Below, piece by piece: positions 47,034-62,895 of a stretch of DNA of 64,000 nucleotides. This stretch comes from Gammaproteobacteria bacterium (lineage in GTDB: Bacteria > Pseudomonadota > Gammaproteobacteria > Magnimaribacterales > Magnimaribacteraceae). The notes under the pieces are model-generated. The model searched no databases. It was not told the origin of the DNA and saw only the letters and a program-made list of their open reading frames with translations. The stretch's first letter is position 1, and each line of letters starts with the position of its first letter. The stretch covers positions 1 to 64,000 of the forward strand of contig SGZM01000004.1 in NCBI GenBank assembly GCA_004214065.1, read 5' to 3'. The translations under genes were made by a program, and so were the position numbers.

Positions 47034-48830
47034 TTATTCAATTGAGAACGCTAGGATAACATTTCCTGCCATCTGGGCATGTTGAGCATAACCACTATTA
47101 ATAAAAATCCAATTATCGGATATTACTGGCCCTGCCGCGTCAATAGATCCACCTACGGCAGGTTGTTTATTTACTGTCTGAAAAGTTCTCAAAGTATCGA
47201 ATTCCCATAATTTAGTTCCATCTTTTGTGGAATGTACCGAAAATCTTCCATCAAGGGAGCCTGCAAATAATAAGTCGTTTGCTATAGAAATTGGTGCAGA
47301 AAATCCAGGGAAACAATAACCTTCTCCATATAAAGGTTTTCTATCTTTACAAATATCATCGGACATAACTGACCAAAGAATAGCTCCACTCTCTAAATCA
47401 ACCGCATATAAACCAGGTCTAGCAAACTCATCATAGTCTCTGTTCACCCACCTATCAGAAATTGGCACATATAATTTTGATTGATCTGTTGCCATTCCAA
47501 AATGAACTCCACCTAAAAGTCCTCCATTGCCTATTCGACTCTTCCAAACTATTTCTCCATTCTCTGGGTTAAGTCTAAATACCTCACCTGACTTTTGTCC
47601 TGCTAAAAGTATTTTATTTCCATTAAAATCCAAAGATTGTATTACTGAAGCCCCGAAATCAAAATCAGGTCCGTTTTCCTTTGGACAAACCATTCTTCGT
47701 ACAACAGGAACTTCGCAGCCTACATTATAGGCATCGCCTGCAAGAGTTTGAGTACTCCATATTCGTTTACCGGTTTCAAGATCTAAGGTGATTATAGCGT
47801 CACTAAAATTAGAAGCTGGAGACTGAAGGCTTTGTCCTGTTCCAAAAAATACTCTTCTCTCTTCTATATCAACACCAGGGGAATTCCAAACTGCCGAGCC
47901 TGAGGGGGCATATTTTTTACTCCTAGAGATTAAACCTTTTCCTATGCTTTTAGGTTTTTGCTCTACTCGGTGATTCCAAAGAATATTCCCGGTTGCAGTA
48001 TCAATGGCAACCATTGCTCCACTACTCTTGCAGCACTCGTATCTTGGATCCATGGCCATAACTGTTTCATAAGTAGACACTGGAATTAATAAATACCTAT
48101 CTACTTGGAGTGGTGAAGCGGAAGGAGTATTGGATTCATGCTCTTTAGGAATCTTAGTTTTCCAGACGATAGTTCCGTCTACGGCATTTAATTTATAAAC
48201 TATAAAGTCATTATCTATGATGTAAATTGCATCCTCTGTTAGCTTATCAAAAGCAGCAGAGTTTCTTATTTGAGCCTTTGATTTAAAGGACCAATAGACA
48301 CAGCCCTTTTCTTTATCAACAGCATATAGAGTATTGGCACCTGAGAGCAAAACCATCTTCCCAATAACTACTGGCTGAGACCTTACTTGCACATTCTTTA
48401 TTCCGAATGACCATCTAAGTTCAAGTTTTTCTATATTACTAGAACTTATTGTCGTATTAGTTTGATTTCTGGAATTTGATGCATCAAAGCCGAAACTTGG
48501 CCAATGAGCACCTACAAAAAGGTCAGCAAGCGAAAGATCATTATTACAAATATTGGCTTCCTCTTTTGCAGGAATATTATTTTCTGAGATGTGCCCGGCA
48601 ATAGCTTGTATTTCTTCTGTTGAGAGATGTTCTGCTTGAGCCTTCATTTTGCCTTGTTGGAGGATATTTATAAGATCCTCTTCTGAATATATAGACATAG
48701 AATCTAATGAAATTAGATTAAGGCTTTTATCATCATGACAAGCAGCGCAATTTTCTTGAGTAAGCTTTTCTCCTTCCGAGGGATACAGAAAAGTGGAGAG
48801 GAAAATTAAAGATATAAAATAAACTCTCAC
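47034..48830 (-). CDS. PQQ-binding quinoprotein with amino-terminal cytochrome c domain
   Basis: The 598-residue exported protein has a signal peptide ([20 protein letters not shown]), a cytochrome c domain with heme motif CAACH (C28, C31, H32) and a likely Met62 ligand, then an eight-blade PQQ-type propeller (repeats such as [13 protein letters not shown] and LVIVWKT-like sheets). The layout resembles polyvinyl-alcohol-dehydrogenase-type quinohaemoproteins. A vicinal Cys pair is at 266-267, a feature also found next to PQQ in alcohol dehydrogenases. It lies between hisA and hisF, 21 and 8 bp away. The substrate is unknown and no PQQ synthesis gene is present. Confidence 0.85.
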
Positions 48831-52211: not shown

Positions 52212-52287
52212 GCCCAGATAGCTCAGTCGGTAGAGCAAAGGACTGAAAATCCTTGTGTCGGTGGTTCGATTCCACCTCTGGGCACCA
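52212..52287 (+). tRNA. tRNA-Phe: tRNA-Phe (anticodon GAA)
   Basis: The 76 bases form a full cloverleaf: acceptor GCCCAGA paired with TCTGGGC, D-arm GCTCAGTCGGTAGAGC, anticodon stem around CTGAAAA with anticodon GAA, T-arm GGTTCGATTCC, and an encoded 3' CCA. It closely resembles E. coli tRNA-Phe. It marks the edge of the small-protein region. Confidence 0.97.
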
Positions 52288-52475
52288 CTTCCCAAGCATG
52301 TTTCAGCTTCCTTGTACTCATACAATGTGTAATGGGTCATCACTAGGTCATCATAAACATATCAAAAGCTTTCGCATTCAATAAATCTGTCGGGTTAGTT
52401 TCATCTCCTCTTTGGCTCCCACGCAGGAGCACCATAGCCCCCTCCCCCTATATATACTCATGCTCAAACATTTTT
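52288..52475. other. Non-coding stretch after tRNA-Phe
   Basis: No convincing frame on either strand. It contains a short direct repeat GGTCATCA (52334-52356 region), a GCTCC...GGAGC hairpin near 52416-52429 and a C-rich run CCCCCTCCCCC (52438-52448) that stands out in this AT-rich DNA. No clear copy of the tRNA 3' end and no terminator was seen. Confidence 0.5.
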
Positions 52476-52520
52476 AGCCAAAAAGGTTTGTAAAGTAGTA
52501 GAGTAAGAATCATGTCTAAA
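52476..52520 (+). repeat. Duplicated leader, copy 1
   Basis: 45 bases ending in ATGTCTAAA agree at 39 positions with 52962-53006. It contains TTTGTAAAGTAGTAGAGTAAGAA just before the start codon and covers the leader and first three codons (MSK) of the gene at 52512. Confidence 0.8.
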
Positions 52521-52736
52521 CCAAAATACTGGACTAAAAAATACAAAGTTGCATTTGTTGTAGGAGGATTAATTGCGTCCGGAGCTGTTTCTTGGGGAAT
52601 TGGCATCTATGATTTCTTAATCTCTCCTTTAAGGAGTCTTGTTGTTATTCTTTTATTTTTCGTAGTTGGAGGTTTGGTATCTGTATTTATTGTAGCTATG
52701 GAAACTTTAGATGAGAAGCCAACTGGCTATCATTAG
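52512..52736 (+). CDS. Small two-segment membrane protein, unknown function
   Basis: The 74-residue protein starts MSKPKYWTKKYKV and has two hydrophobic segments (about 14-35, FVVGGLIASGAVSWGIG, and 42-63, LVVILLFFVVGGLVSVFIV). I do not recognise a family. The lysine-rich amino end suggests it lies in the cytoplasm. Its leader and first three codons are duplicated before the gene at 52998, while the rest of the protein differs. Confidence 0.65.
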   Translation: MSKPKYWTKKYKVAFVVGGLIASGAVSWGIGIYDFLISPLRSLVVILLFFVVGGLVSVFIVAMETLDEKPTGYH

Positions 52737-52804
52737 AAATAAGTAAATAAGAATGAACTCAAAAATAAATATTTTTAGATTCATGACTTAGAGGAGTTTG
52801 ATTA

Positions 52805-52945
52805 ATGGGTATATTTCTAATAGCACTCTCAGTTGCTTTCGGATGTTTCTATTTCTTTAAAGATAAAAAGGACAGAGGTGATGTTCCGGAGGCTGCAATT
52901 GCTTTCGCTATTGTCATGTTCTTTATGGGCTTATTCGCACTCTAG
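52805..52945 (+). CDS. Very small membrane protein (46 residues)
   Basis: The frame begins at an ATG after TAGAGGAG and encodes two hydrophobic stretches, GIFLIALSVAFGCFYFF and AIAFAIVMFFMGLFAL, joined by the charged loop KDKKDRGDVPE. The ribosome site and membrane pattern support translation despite the short length. No family recognised. Confidence 0.6.
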   Translation: MGIFLIALSVAFGCFYFFKDKKDRGDVPEAAIAFAIVMFFMGLFAL

Positions 52946-52961
52946 ATTGATGGACATATTA

Positions 52962-53006
52962 AGCCGAAAAAAGTTGTAAAGTAGTAAAGTAAGAAACATG
53001 TCTAAA
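52962..53006 (+). repeat. Duplicated leader, copy 2
   Basis: Second copy of the 45-bp element at 52476, again ending in ATGTCTAAA. It starts 16 bp after the stop of the 46-residue gene. Differences are at 6 positions, mostly in the A-rich part. Confidence 0.8.
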
Positions 53007-53267
53007 TTACCCGACCCTAGGATTAAGTTTCTTTACAAGGAAGTAATTTATAAAAGAGCAAATTTTGCATTTAAGTATGTTTTTTGGACTCTTTTTCTTA
53101 TTTTTATTATTTTTTTATTATCTTACCTACCTACACCGTATGAAGGCCCAGATAGTTATAGAAATGGAATAGACCCTGGTTACTTTACTTATACTGAATT
53201 TTGGATTGGGATATTTTTTTTATGGGTAGGTGTTTTTTTTAAACCTAATTTTTTTAGATTTTGGTAA
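52998..53267 (+). CDS. Small two-segment membrane protein, unknown function
   Basis: The 89-residue protein begins MSKLPDPRIKFLYKE and has hydrophobic segments at about 28-45 (WTLFLIFIIFLLSYLP) and 70-86 (WIGIFFLWVGVFFKP), with a polar, Tyr-rich loop between. It shares the leader and MSK start with the gene at 52512 but no further similarity that I can see. Unknown function. Confidence 0.6.
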   Translation: MSKLPDPRIKFLYKEVIYKRANFAFKYVFWTLFLIFIIFLLSYLPTPYEGPDSYRNGIDPGYFTYTEFWIGIFFLWVGVFFKPNFFRFW

Positions 53268-53277
53268 GGTTACTAAG

Positions 53278-53709
53278 ATGAAAAAACTAATACTAATAAC
53301 CGGGATACTGCTTTCAACTAGCCTGTGGGCTGATAATTATGAAAATGAAATCATTTTCTACGAAGAGTTTAGCCCACTTAAAAGTGAGCAAGAAACTGCT
53401 AAGTTTTCGGAATACTATCAGAGCATAGTAGATAAAAATGAGCCAGATACTCTCGGATGGAAGTTCTTTAAAGCGGAAGACAAAGTCATAGCCATACTAA
53501 GATGGAAAGATTCACAAGCAATAGTGAGACACTTAGAAAATGTTTCTGAAGGCGGAATCCTTGAAGAGGACTTTAAAGCTTTTAATGAACACTTTGCTAT
53601 TAACAGTATTGCAGTTTACGGAAATGTAGATGCTGATGTTAAAAAAATGCTTATGGACTTTGGACTGCCATTTGAATTCAATCCATTAATTGCTGGATAT
53701 AGTAGATAA
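53278..53709 (+). CDS. Secreted protein, possible ABM-like barrel
   Basis: The 143-residue protein has a signal peptide MKKLILITGILLSTSLWA with cleavage likely before DNYENE. The mature part (about 125 residues) has the alternating pattern of a dimeric alpha/beta barrel like antibiotic biosynthesis monooxygenase or NIPSNAP proteins (WKFFKAEDKVIAILRWKD, GGILEEDFKAFNEHF), but this is a weak call. I chose ATG at 53278 because it starts the signal peptide; earlier in-frame codons have no such pattern. Its signal peptide resembles those at 53710 and 54320. Confidence 0.65.
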   Translation: MKKLILITGILLSTSLWADNYENEIIFYEEFSPLKSEQETAKFSEYYQSIVDKNEPDTLGWKFFKAEDKVIAILRWKDSQAIVRHLENVSEGGILEEDFKAFNEHFAINSIAVYGNVDADVKKMLMDFGLPFEFNPLIAGYSR

Positions 53710-53778
53710 ATGAAACGCTATACCCTCCTACTAACCTTGCAAGTCTCTGGAAGTTTGTGGTCTGATGAAAAAAAGTAA
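53710..53778 (+). pseudogene. Signal-peptide remnant, 22 residues
   Basis: Directly after the previous stop, an ATG opens MKRYTLLLTLQVSGSLWSDE followed by KK and a stop. The end GSLWSDE resembles SLWADN and SLWASP of the neighbours, so this looks like a decayed copy of a secreted protein gene. A true micropeptide is possible. Confidence 0.4.
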
Positions 53779-53832
53779 CTAGAAAGTAACTTTATTGCAC
53801 TAGAAAATTATAAAAAAAAGTATTATCTTATC

Positions 53833-54354
53833 TTGGTGTCGGCGGATTGTTTGATATTGAATAGAGATGGAAGGCCTCTGAGCTTTTTTCCACTTTCAGT
53901 CGTCGACTGGCATTCTGCTATTAAACTGACTTTAAACCGAAAAGTCTTCGTTGTGAAAGATCACAGCGATTGGGTCGTCAGGTCTCCAAGCGTGGCCTTA
54001 AATGTGCCGAGCATAATCATGCTCTCTAATTATCATAATCTCAAGAAAGAGGTAAAGTTTTCAAGATCAAATGTTTTTTCCAGAGATAACTACGTTTGCC
54101 AGTACTGCGAGGAAAAATTTCCAAAGAATGATCTTACTCTAGATCATGTTATTCCAATTTCAAAAGGAGGTGATACTTCTTGGGAGAATGTCACTACATC
54201 ATGCAAAGTTTGCAATAACAAAAAAGGCAATTCTGATCTGAAACCAATGACGACGCCTAAGAAACCAACCTTAAAGCATATGATGAAATCCTATTTAGAT
54301 TTATCTTATAACTTCAAAGATGAGGAATGGACTAAATACATTGATATCGATTGA
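53833..54354 (+). CDS. HNH endonuclease
   Basis: The 173-residue protein carries a zinc-stabilised HNH domain: CQYCEEKF (two Cys), LDHVIPISKGGDTSWENV (catalytic His) and SCKVCNNKKGN (two Cys). The amino half (LILNRDGRPLSFFPLSVVDW) matches a widespread stand-alone bacterial HNH family whose role is not defined. The start is TTG at 53833 or GTG at 53836, with no clear ribosome site. No restriction, intein or phage partner is nearby. Confidence 0.85.
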   Translation: MVSADCLILNRDGRPLSFFPLSVVDWHSAIKLTLNRKVFVVKDHSDWVVRSPSVALNVPSIIMLSNYHNLKKEVKFSRSNVFSRDNYVCQYCEEKFPKNDLTLDHVIPISKGGDTSWENVTTSCKVCNNKKGNSDLKPMTTPKKPTLKHMMKSYLDLSYNFKDEEWTKYIDID

Positions 54355-54676
54355 AATTTACAGATTAGTAAAGTTAATACTTACAACCAGTGTCTTTCTT
54401 TCAACTAGTCTGTGGGCTAGTCCAAAGGACACTATTTGCTTTATTGACCTTAAGGAGGATAGGGTTTTTTCGGGAAAGCATTCACTCCTAGTGAGTGAAA
54501 ACTGTGAGAGGAATAATATATTTAATGTATATGCCAATAAAAGTTACCTTAATGCTGACGCTGTTGTGACTAGTTGGTGCAGATACGATAGACATATTAA
54601 TATATATAGAGTTGAGGAAATATTTACTGTTAATTGTGTTCTTTACGATAATAAGCCAAGAGAACTCATAGAGTAA
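54320..54676 (+). CDS. Secreted small protein with cysteines, unknown function
   Basis: The 118-residue frame contains VKLILTTSVFLSTSLWAS, a signal peptide nearly matching the one at 53278, then about 85 residues with four Cys (CFIDLKED, NCERNN, WCRYD, NCVLYD) that could form disulfides in the periplasm. The proper start is unclear: the only ATG (54320) lies within the HNH gene and adds 15 residues before the signal core. Relative to the 53278 copy, the segment with the original ATG seems deleted. Confidence 0.5.
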   Translation: MRNGLNTLISIEIYRLVKLILTTSVFLSTSLWASPKDTICFIDLKEDRVFSGKHSLLVSENCERNNIFNVYANKSYLNADAVVTSWCRYDRHINIYRVEEIFTVNCVLYDNKPRELIE

Positions 54677-54711
54677 ACTTCCCCACTACATTACATTCCT
54701 CAAAGTCTTCC

Positions 54712-54760
54712 TTGTTATGATAACAATACAGGATTTATTGAATCTAAGATCTTGAGATTC
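54712..54760. other. Two short inverted repeats between convergent genes
   Basis: TTGTTAT-G-ATAACAA (54712-54726) and GAATCT...AGATTC (54740-54760, around AAGATCTTG) lie between the ends of the genes at 54320 and 54760. They may help end transcription, but T runs are poor. Confidence 0.3.
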
Positions 54761-55218
54761 TAAATCTGAGAAAAATGAGAATGGGATATTCCCCATTTTC
54801 CTTTTTCTTTTATAAGAATCATAGTTGCATGATTAAAAACAGGCGGGGAAACATCTCCTACTCCCGCTATAAAATCAAATCTTCTTTGAAAATGTGCAAC
54901 CGCAACATTTCCATATATTCTGACTTCAGGAGAAATAATAGTTTGTATGATTTTCCAATCAGGATCTCTTTTTAAAGTCGCTGACCTTCTTTCCTTTTGG
55001 ATCATCAAATTATCAACCTGATTAGGCCATTTATCTGAACCAGAAATCATCACCCTATCATCTCTTATTAAGTTCGCTTGAGCATCAAGGTCACTTTCTA
55101 AGGAAGCCCATTCCTTTATAAACTGAACTACCTCTTCTTCTTCAGAGCTATAAATTTGTCCTGAGACAGCAGATATTAATAACGAAAGTAAAATTAATTT
55201 TGGCAATTTTTTGTTCAT
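54760..55218 (-). CDS. Secreted SnoaL/DUF4440-like protein
   Basis: The 152-residue protein has a signal peptide (MNKKLPKLILLSLLISAVSG) and a nuclear-transport-factor-2-like domain: VVQFIKEWASLESDLDAQ near the start, VRIYGNVAVAHFQRRF and TMILIKEKGKWGISHSHFS at the end, as in SnoaL or DUF4440 proteins. The ligand is unknown. A strong ribosome site (AAAGGAGT) precedes the ATG. It is the only minus-strand gene in the small-protein region. Confidence 0.8.
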   Translation of the reverse strand: MNKKLPKLILLSLLISAVSGQIYSSEEEEVVQFIKEWASLESDLDAQANLIRDDRVMISGSDKWPNQVDNLMIQKERRSATLKRDPDWKIIQTIISPEVRIYGNVAVAHFQRRFDFIAGVGDVSPPVFNHATMILIKEKGKWGISHSHFSQI

Positions 55219-55392
55219 GATATTACTCCTTTAAAGATAGAATTTTAAATTTTTAACATAAGAATCTTATCACTATAGGTCTTGAGTTTATATCGTTAAC
55301 TAATATATGCACTATGAAAGTTTTAAATGACGATATTCATCGTAAAATAGGAAGTTATGAAAGAGAATACTCAATAAAAAAGAGTGGAATTA

Positions 55393-55578
55393 ATGTGGAT
55401 TATTCTAATTATTGTATTAATGTGCTGGGAGGCTTACTGGACCTACCATGCATGTTGGATAGCTTCTAAACTGGATGAAAAAAAATCTTTCTTTTTTTTT
55501 CTAGTCTTCAATCTATTAGGAATTCCAGAGATAATTTATATTTACAAAAAGAAAAAAGAGTTTGATGCAACCCTGTGA
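55393..55578 (+). CDS. Small two-segment membrane protein, unknown function
   Basis: The 61-residue protein from ATG 55393 has two hydrophobic segments (MWIILIIVLMCWEAYW and FFFFLVFNLLGIPEIIYI) and ends in a lysine-rich tail. The second half resembles the pattern of PLDc_N-like integral segments, but I do not assign a family. A GTG three codons upstream (55384) is a possible start. A 164-bp AT-rich gap precedes it. Confidence 0.55.
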   Translation: MWIILIIVLMCWEAYWTYHACWIASKLDEKKSFFFFLVFNLLGIPEIIYIYKKKKEFDATL

Positions 55579-55624
55579 CGGTTTCACTTAATCGGAGTAA
55601 TTATCACGTATTTAGGAAAGGACT

Positions 55625-55822
55625 ATGATCGAATTAATATTACTTGCTATCTTGATATTTGTTGGAGTTCTCTGGTTTAGAAATTTATCAAAAAAACAAG
55701 ACCAAGAAGAAACTGAGGTTGAAGGAAACTTGCAGGCAAATAAATGGGGAACTTATTTTTCTATAATTATAGTGAGCGGTTTCTTCATTTGGCTTTTAAT
55801 AACTAATGGTAATTTGAATTAA
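55625..55822 (+). CDS. Small two-segment membrane protein, unknown function
   Basis: The 65-residue protein has hydrophobic ends (IELILLAILIFVGVLWF and YFSIIIVSGFFIWLLI) around a charged middle (SKKQDQEETEVEG). The ATG follows the ribosome site AGGAAAGGA. It lies 13 bp before the next small gene, so the two are probably cotranscribed. No family recognised. Confidence 0.6.
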   Translation: MIELILLAILIFVGVLWFRNLSKKQDQEETEVEGNLQANKWGTYFSIIIVSGFFIWLLITNGNLN

Positions 55823-55835
55823 GGGAGATTATTTA

Positions 55836-56066
55836 ATGGATAAAGGTAAAGTTTTTACAATTGGGTTATGGGCGATTCTGGGAGTTAACTATCTATTTGA
55901 TTTTTCTAGTTGGGTAAATTATTTTGCCGTTTTATTATTAGCGATACACCTAATTGAATACGTTGTTTTTTTTAAAAGAATCAAAGACTCTGAAGATAAC
56001 TTATTTTATGGATTTTTAATGACACTAATCTTTGGCGTTTTATATATTCAACCCTTAAAGAAATAA
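55836..56066 (+). CDS. Small membrane protein, DUF1145-like
   Basis: The 76-residue protein has three hydrophobic segments and the pattern W...GVNY, LLLAIHLIEYVVFF and LIFGVLYIQPLKK, which resembles the DUF1145 (YhhL) family with its conserved His and FG-hydrophobic-LQ end. Function of that family is unknown. A GGGAGATT ribosome site precedes the ATG. Confidence 0.6.
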   Translation: MDKGKVFTIGLWAILGVNYLFDFSSWVNYFAVLLLAIHLIEYVVFFKRIKDSEDNLFYGFLMTLIFGVLYIQPLKK

Positions 56067-56117
56067 TGAGTTCAATATCTGTACTTCCCGTGACTGATCA
56101 ATAATCGGAATAGATAG

Positions 56118-56306
56118 ATGAAGAAGATTTTATCCTTTTTGCTTTTCGCCTTTTGCATATTTTTCCTCTTAATAGGCCTATATCTGTCCGGATATTCTTT
56201 TCTTAACTTTTCAGGTAAGTTACTTATAGTCAACTTATTGTCCTCCCTTATGTGCCTTGCGATTTCAAGTGCCTTGTATTTTTTAAGGATTAAGTTGAAC
56301 AGTTGA
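56118..56306 (+). CDS. Small two-segment membrane protein, unknown function
   Basis: The 62-residue protein is almost wholly hydrophobic, with segments at about 4-25 and 33-55 and short basic ends (MKK and RIKLNS). No family recognised. It is the last of the tiny genes before pip, 51 bp after the DUF1145-like gene. Confidence 0.5.
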   Translation: MKKILSFLLFAFCIFFLLIGLYLSGYSFLNFSGKLLIVNLLSSLMCLAISSALYFLRIKLNS

Positions 56307-56354: not shown

Positions 56355-57314
56355 ATGAAGTTGTTTAATAAAAAAAATAAATTATTTCCTGCTATAGAAC
56401 CATATGATTCTGGGTTCATTAAGAAAGGAATTCATGAAATTTATTATGAACAAAGTGGTAATCCCAAAGGCAAACCGGCTATCTTTCTTCATGGTGGTCC
56501 AGGAGGCGGTGCTGGAGGCTTCTCCAGAAGATTCTTTAATCCAAAGAAGTACAGGATAGTCCTTTTTGATCAAAGAGGATGTGGAAAAAGTAAACCGCAT
56601 GCCTCCTTAGAAGACAATACTACTTGGCATTTGGTAGAAGATATCGAATCTATAAGAGAACAATTAGATATTGAAAAATGGCTAGTCTTTGGTGGGTCTT
56701 GGGGAAGTACCTTAGCTTTAGCTTACGCACAAAGTCATCCTCAGCGCGTCAGTGAGCTCGTGCTAAGGGGAATATTCATGCTCAGAGAAAAAGAACTTCA
56801 ATGGTTTTATCAGTATGGTGCAAGTGAAATATATCCTGAGGCGTGGCAAGGATTTTTAGAAGAGATCCCTCAAGAGAAGAGAACTAATCTTATCGAAGCT
56901 TATAGAGAAATCTTTGGTGGTGATGATGAAGAAAAAAAGCTATCTGCAGCAAAAGCATGGTCGAAATGGGAGGCTTCTACCAGCTTCATTAACCACAATC
57001 CAGAAGCAGTTAAAGAATCTATCAATAATCAATTTGCTTTAGCTTTCGCACTTATTGAAAATCATTATTTTGTTAATAAAGGCTTCTTAGATCATGAAAA
57101 TCAACTTTTAGATAATATTGAAAAAATTAGACATATACCGGCAGTTATTGTCCAAGGTAGATATGATGTTGTATGCCCTCCAACAACAGCTTATGAATTA
57201 CATCAAAGATGGCCTGAATCAGAATTAAAGATAGCCCCTTTCTCGGGTCATTCAGCATTTGAAGAGGAAATCACGGATTTGCTCATAGAGACTACAAATA
57301 ATTTCAGCAAATAA
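56355..57314 (+). CDS. pip: Proline iminopeptidase (alpha/beta hydrolase)
   Basis: The 319-residue enzyme removes amino-terminal proline from peptides. It shows LHGGPGGGAGGFSRRFF (oxyanion region), DQRGCGKSKP, the nucleophile elbow GGSWGSTLALAYA near residue 115, QGRYDVVCPP with the Asp, and FSGHSAFE with the His. These match the classical Pip family (S33). It stands alone, with 56 bp before the next gene. Confidence 0.93.
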   Translation: MKLFNKKNKLFPAIEPYDSGFIKKGIHEIYYEQSGNPKGKPAIFLHGGPGGGAGGFSRRFFNPKKYRIVLFDQRGCGKSKPHASLEDNTTWHLVEDIESIREQLDIEKWLVFGGSWGSTLALAYAQSHPQRVSELVLRGIFMLREKELQWFYQYGASEIYPEAWQGFLEEIPQEKRTNLIEAYREIFGGDDEEKKLSAAKAWSKWEASTSFINHNPEAVKESINNQFALAFALIENHYFVNKGFLDHENQLLDNIEKIRHIPAVIVQGRYDVVCPPTTAYELHQRWPESELKIAPFSGHSAFEEEITDLLIETTNNFSK

Positions 57315-62472: not shown

Positions 62473-62895
62473 ATGACGAGACAAGAACAAACCGGTGGAT
62501 GTTTATGCGGAAAAGTAAGCTATCTTTTCAATAAAGATGAAGTGATATCAGCTCATCATTGTCACTGTGTTGACTGTAAAAAAAGCACTGGTAGCGGTAA
62601 AGCAACAATACTATTAATTCCCAATAATTCCCTAAAAGTAAAAGGTAGCCTAAAATTCTTTACTGTTACTGGTTCGGCTGGTTCAAATGTTTCAAGAGGG
62701 TTTTGTGAAGAGTGTGGGTCACCTCTCATTTCCTTCGTAGAAGAAAACCCAGATATCAAATTCATCAAAGCGGGGAGTATTGATGACTCTTCTTGGGTTA
62801 CTGCTAACTCTAATTTTTGGAGCTCCACTGCAAGTCCTTGGTCGCCTGCAGATGAAAAGATAAATAACTTTACACATAATCCTGATTTCGTATAA
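62473..62895 (+). CDS. GFA domain protein (glutathione-dependent formaldehyde-activating-like)
   Basis: The 140-residue protein binds zinc through GGCLCGKVSY, HHCHCVDCKKSTGS and FCEECGSPL, the Cys pattern of the GFA/CENP-V fold. Despite the family name, most members have no proven link to formaldehyde. A GGAGTTATT ribosome site precedes the ATG. It is 3 bp before zapE. Confidence 0.9.
   Translation: MTRQEQTGGCLCGKVSYLFNKDEVISAHHCHCVDCKKSTGSGKATILLIPNNSLKVKGSLKFFTVTGSAGSNVSRGFCEECGSPLISFVEENPDIKFIKAGSIDDSSWVTANSNFWSSTASPWSPADEKINNFTHNPDFV

Follow-up and report, generated by a model that had tools for sequence, protein, structure and literature searches.

Additive flexible genomic islands were described in Alteromonas (PMC5217437) and in Methylophilaceae, where the flexible genomic island fGI-2 has repeated tRNA-Lys ends (PMC10872708). 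In such islands, a fixed tRNA locus gains and loses cassettes, and tRNA 3′-end repeats separate the units. Accretion of cis-mobilizable elements (CIMEs) is known from streptococcal elements and from the ssrA islands of Dehalococcoides (PMC5704250, PMC3146451), and the tycheposons, as described in PMC10872708, are 4–200 kb in size. The present analysis concerns the 4.07-kb interval with 11 open reading frames (ORFs) between tRNA-Phe and pip in a 64-kb window, i.e., the whole stretch of DNA analysed, which represents contig C34 of a 1.13-Mb genome of 73% completeness (genome code G000). The host appears to be SAR86, as judged from the closest named pip relatives, which are SAR86 cluster bacteria. 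We consider the interval to be an additive integration hotspot behind tRNA-Phe, with micropeptides and secreted proteins as its current cargo, and assign to this reading a probability of about 0.86. The kind of island is already known, namely the additive genomic island with CIME-like accretion, and the SAR86 case is its fine-grained variant: units often span 0.2–3 kb and hold one to four small genes, arm repeats of two classes are resolved, and the cargo is rich in micropeptides.

The interval is bordered on the left by the tRNA-Phe(gaa) gene (52212–52287, + strand), the integration target, nt 25/31–76 of which make up the duplicated core in relatives. The conserved right flank is pip (proline iminopeptidase-like, a name taken from the initial annotation; 56355–57314, + strand). 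The gene frame mutY, yggX-like, tRNA-Phe, variable part, pip is kept throughout the family (f1) and, for the most part, across the order. In the synteny comparison, not one of the 11 ORFs in the interval is shared by all five same-genus SAR86 genomes. The other 67 genes of the window are nearly all syntenic in the five genomes wherever the compared stretch covers them. Among relatives, the interval length goes from tens of bp to >7 kb. A census of 47 SAR86 tRNA-Phe/pip sites revealed 11 empty sites (<110 bp), 13 with copies of the tRNA 3′ half (25–52 bp), and 23 filled without a copy. Gain and loss of cassettes at a fixed chromosomal place, as in additive islands, is what the relatives display. 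Many of the closest named pip relatives are single-cell genomes, and because several relatives are of this type, the variability at the site is not a binning error. Synteny, the comparison of empty with filled sites, copies of the tRNA 3′ end, integrases, and arm repeats all back the variable island at a tRNA end that the initial annotation proposed; identical genes in identical order in all relatives, the outcome that it had named as refuting, is clearly not what is seen when the locus is compared. Two peculiarities of the site were also noted (G denotes a genome and L a fetched locus stretch). In L085 (G009), pip and the island sit behind tRNA-Thr instead of tRNA-Phe, owing to a rearrangement or an assembly error. 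In G002, near-identical cassette runs with ambiguous bases are found on two contigs (L087 and L093), which suggests strain mixture at the site.

In many relatives, the 3′ half of the tRNA is repeated downstream of the intact tRNA-Phe gene. In the well-preserved cases, a 44–52-bp copy of the tRNA 3′ end is located at the far side of the element. In L129 and L136, the sequence past the last copy (CAAAATTTTAATCCTTTTTAAGGT...) matches the post-tRNA flank of the empty site L146 within 1–2 bases, and the flank of another empty site, L132, is closely similar to it. Since the flank of the filled sites after the last copy is that of the empty site, the locus can be described in terms of attachment (att) sites, attB, attL, and attR. 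These comparisons show that tRNA-Phe receives small elements at its 3′ half, the gene itself staying intact. The elements inferred from empty and filled sites measure 0.2–9.5 kb, and most are without an integrase. L129 and L136 each contain a tandem of two units, including a 1.85-kb unit also present in L128 that encodes heavy-metal-associated domain, MerT-like, and metal repressor proteins, and the element of L126 carries a C5 cytosine methylase and two unknown genes. In G013 (L089, G013m, 2424–2850), a gene-less unit of ~220 bp lies between tRNA-Phe and a tRNA copy and is followed by a second left end with the same left arm.

The initial annotation reported that neither an integrase nor a repeated tRNA end is visible. 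This is correct for the window, yet both are found at the same site in relatives. In G006, a 489-aa tyrosine integrase (PF00589, Arm-DNA-bind_3) adjoins a 50-bp tRNA copy, after which comes the 220-bp flank that in the window directly follows the tRNA. In G056, a 9.5-kb element is bounded by the tRNA and a 50-bp copy. Its 493-aa integrase, 58% identical to that of G006, is located at the same element end, and the interior contains several small ORFs for membrane and secreted proteins. The elements with these two integrases, each encoded beside attR, are of class A by their arm repeats.

Further evidence comes from direct-repeat pairs at fixed offsets. Class A pairs are located 45–47 bp past the tRNA and ~50 bp before the copy, with a core of tRNA nt 27–76 and arms near AAGTMATCA at a period of 11. 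Class B pairs are located 27–31 bp past the tRNA and also ~50 bp before the copy, with a core of nt 31–76 and arms near TTTGAACA at a period of 10–12. Taken singly, several arm pairs do not differ significantly from shuffles, and what counts is that the offsets are constant. The window keeps a class A left end (attL flank and leader; 52288–52511, + strand) and no attR. This left end is retained in G005, G010, and G015, and in G006 it follows the tRNA copy. It includes the arm-type pair GTCATCA-N4-GTCATCA (52336–52353, + strand), 48 bp past the tRNA, which is the only class A pair in the window, with none in 100 shuffles. In homologous left ends, the two repeats vary in concert, being GTCATCA in the window and G015, GTAATCA in G010, and GTCACCA in G005 and G006. 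A scan of 61 genomes for this type of motif yielded 10 matches, 8 of them at the hotspot, and 0 with a reversed control; it was made with the class A motif, the class B arm motif being too degenerate for scanning. One of the two matches off the hotspot belongs to the window's own genome (G000:C2:30818–30835, L219), in a segment that showed no tRNA. The arm pair of the window would not be recognisable without the relatives.

The cargo begins with the membrane ORFs ORF74 (52512–52736, + strand), having a 76% homologue adjoining tRNA-Val in G004, ORF46 (52805–52945, + strand; 93% in G013 with a non-synonymous to synonymous rate ratio, dN/dS, of 0.12, and 49% in G005), and ORF89 (52998–53267, + strand), whose 59% homologue with one stop is located 3′ of tRNA-Glu in G030. 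The three or four signal-peptide proteins mentioned in the initial annotation correspond to three, the predicted secreted proteins SP143 (53278–53709, + strand) and SP103 (about 54368–54676, + strand, likely GTG start) and the SnoaL-like secreted protein (54760–55218, − strand; 99% in G006, with a 63% homologue adjoining tRNA-Lys in G015), plus an orphan 22-aa signal-peptide ORF (53710–53778, + strand) that appears to be a junction scar. The HNH nuclease claimed there is also present: the protein at 53833–54354 (+ strand, TTG start) matches PF14279 (8e-17) and PF01844 (1.5e-16) and has homologues of 98% in G006 and of 94% at another locus in G005 and G015. On the pip side, all on the + strand, are the membrane proteins M64 (DUF5652-like; 55384–55578), M65 (55625–55822), M76 (DUF1145-like; 55836–56066), and M62 (56118–56306).

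The two sides of the interval differ in age. The tRNA-side genes have a low proportion of synonymous differences (pS; 0.03–0.39 overall) as compared to the saturated core. In the comparison with G006, pS is 0.09 for HNH and 0.03 for both SP103 and SnoaL vs. 0.77 for mutY and 0.74 for pip in the same genome pair. ORF46 (0.21, to G013), ORF74 (0.17, to G004), and SP143 (0.30, to G004) are young too. M64, M65, M76, and M62 are core-gene-like, with pS of 0.62–1.12 and a ratio of non-synonymous to synonymous differences (pN/pS) of 0.12–0.28. Judging by these divergences, the tRNA-side genes are evidently recent transfers and the pip-side group consists of old residents under purifying selection. 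The layering fits the entry of new units next to the tRNA.

Exchange block A (HNH and SP103; 53727–54720) and exchange block B (SnoaL; 54728–55307) show DNA identity to G006 of 97% and 98%, respectively, and occur there in reversed order. The ends of shared blocks (n = 100) fall between genes in 63 cases (25 expected), in the first 60 nt or signal-peptide part in 25 (12 expected), and inside coding sequences, the interior of which is 65% of the sequence, in 12. The SP143 proteins of G005 and G010 are 98% identical in the mature part and 59% in the signal peptide, which in the window protein appears to have been exchanged relative to these two genomes. SP143 and SP103 of the window are 78% alike in signal-peptide DNA, their mature parts being unrelated. 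Signal-peptide segments (window 53278–53331 and 54370–54418; L064 4282, L067 4469) appear swapped among near-identical or unrelated secreted proteins. A conserved leader (...TTGTAAAGTAGTAGAGTAAGAATCATG) at 52468–52520 is followed by different first genes in relatives, and a second copy (52954–53006, + strand; 85% identity) is located upstream of ORF89. It might serve as a common expression leader. An Rfam search gave only the tRNA above the cut-off, and a promoter and terminator scan performed no better than shuffles. A structured leader RNA was considered and rejected: the five-genome consensus fold has mostly invariant pairs, and the covariation term is unfavourable.

The initial annotation counted six membrane proteins of 46–89 residues. 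Such proteins are present, but their number is seven (46, 62, 64, 65, 74, 76, and 89 aa), each with a hydrophobic segment called by a hydropathy heuristic, not by a trained predictor. Their density is indeed unlike the surroundings, with 7 of 11 ORFs in the interval vs. 0 of 67 elsewhere in the window (Fisher 1.2e-7), and the median ORF length is 76 aa vs. 252 aa in the rest of the window. The DUF1145-like match of M76 is genuine but weak (PF06611, 23.2 bits vs. a cut-off of 21, E 6.5e-5), lying above the Pfam gathering cut-off. M64 has a better match, with DUF5652 (39.1 vs. a cut-off of 23.4). Purifying selection is seen in M64, M65, M76, M62, SP143, HNH, and SnoaL, and ORF46 is consistent with it. 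The signal is weak for ORF74 (dN/dS of 0.69 over 74 codons), and ORF89 has a single distant homologue, carrying a stop; these two seem the least secure as coding ORFs.

Cargo homologues adjoin other tRNA genes in relatives, namely tRNA-Val (G004, G003), tRNA-Glu on its 3′ side and tRNA-Gly (G030), and tRNA-Lys (G015). The HNH homologue in G005 and G015 is not close to any tRNA. The tRNA-Glu 3′ flank of G030 (L218 4505–4634) has a repeated TTGTTGTCATAT, resembling arm repeats of another specificity. With regard to function, SP143 is predicted to have an alpha/beta fold of the antibiotic-biosynthesis-monooxygenase type (mean predicted local distance difference test score, pLDDT, of 65; nearest PDB entry MupZ 6fxd, E 2e-6). 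The membrane ORFs gave no informative match. Envelope adaptation or defence, the possible roles named in the initial annotation, stay conjectural. The M64-M65-M76-M62 group is presumably useful, perhaps, as a guess, at the envelope.

Several points weigh against the hotspot reading. The window has neither a tRNA copy nor an integrase; tRNA-end repeats, the signature of site-specific recombination, are seen in relatives, and the window shows the arm pair only. Its genome, at 73% completeness, has one tyrosine-recombinase match. Mobility today is unlikely because there is no integrase and this sole match is Xer-sized, and the comparison of genome sequences revealed no excision or transfer. The cargo at tRNA-Val sits on the 5′ side of the tRNA, not on the 3′ side. 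The window was among the sites known when the motif consensus was drawn up, though the non-window sites alone yield the same consensus. The arms of G006 differ at the two ends, which are on separate contigs and may belong to different elements. Breakpoints and sites are phylogenetically non-independent, so the breakpoint p values are optimistic.

One alternative is that homologous recombination between conserved flanks alone, as in a replacement-type island, produced the variability, the tRNA being incidental. The absence of a tRNA copy from the window, the 23 of 47 sites filled without one, and the resemblance of blocks A and B to local recombination agree with this. However, the relatives have tRNA 3′ copies, arm pairs at fixed offsets, junctions of empty and filled sites, and integrases next to them, all of which speak against it, as does the arm pair of the window itself, and as a sole mechanism flank recombination is strongly disfavoured. 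A degraded prophage or phage satellite remnant, for which the tRNA-targeted tyrosine integrase of relatives and the match of HNH to phage families could be quoted, is improbable: no structural, packaging, or replication genes are recognised in the window interval or in the G056 element, the small membrane ORFs tested have at most one, marginal, PHROG match, and a search of IMG/VR by two patterns did not find the integrase family. A pip search of IMG/VR gave only relatives of 55–56%. A defence island, to which the methylase of L126 with its two neighbours and the HNH domain of the window might point, is about equally improbable. PADLOC gives only a generic low-score similarity for HNH and no model for the small membrane ORFs tested, and the cargo in relatives is mixed, comprising a metal-responsive operon, MazG-like proteins, and oxidoreductases besides the methylase. 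The least probable reading is a cassette array of the integron or CALIN type, which the site resembles in its pool of small, mostly same-strand, shuffled genes, possibly read from a shared leader ahead of different first genes, but its junctions in relatives are tRNA copies, a general repeat search with no attC-specific model found no attC-like recurring repeat between ORFs, no IntI was seen, and the single tyrosine-recombinase match in the genome is Xer-sized.

For the additive hotspot, the following mechanism is proposed. The integrase would bind the arm pairs, and units without an integrase would be moved by that of another element. New units would enter beside the tRNA and displace older ones toward pip, and the loss of attR would fix the cargo. 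Exchange across short shared leaders and signal-peptide segments would reshuffle the genes. We also entertain, as a tentative and rather doubtful extension, an integron-like system on tRNA genes, in which rare elements with an integrase would act in trans to move a shared pool of integrase-less packets of less than 3 kb with matched arms among several tRNA loci, and coding joints at signal peptides would let a new leader and export signal capture a mature protein.

In comparison with CIMEs, the likeness lies in elements with attL and attR and without an integrase, which at a single site (G006) are stacked with an element that bears one. L126, L128, L129, and L136 have both att ends and no integrase or transfer genes, whereas the window has attL only. 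The SAR86 units are far smaller, no conjugative parent is seen, and there is a tyrosine integrase at tRNA-Phe instead of the serine recombinase at ssrA of the CIME comparison system. Tycheposons, compared by description only, are likewise tRNA-anchored and cargo-carrying, with a tyrosine recombinase and streamlined aquatic hosts, but the SAR86 elements are mostly <4 kb and without a recombinase. The interval of the window, at 4.07 kb and without a recombinase, does not match the description of a tycheposon, and the G056 element would fit in size and recombinase.

Outside the interval, exceptions to synteny are found at 47034–48830 (− strand), a 598-aa pyrroloquinoline quinone (PQQ) beta-propeller/cytochrome c protein that has no equivalent in any of the five stretches compared, and at 62473–62895 (+ strand), a GFA-family gene common only to G003 among the relatives compared.

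A single-cell study of SAR86 described outer-membrane genes in a hypervariable region other than this one (PMC3569297), and the literature searched contained no account of a SAR86 tRNA-Phe island. Within that literature, what is new is the host, the very small size of the units, the two arm classes with covarying repeats, and the signal-peptide joints. The motif GTMATCA-N4-GTMATCA is diagnostic for locating att sites, and a candidate pair of integrase and att is at hand. Conserved nameless small membrane proteins are placed in a mobile-gene context. SAR86 is abundant, uncultured, and streamlined, and the hotspot would offer a concrete route for such genomes to acquire single genes.

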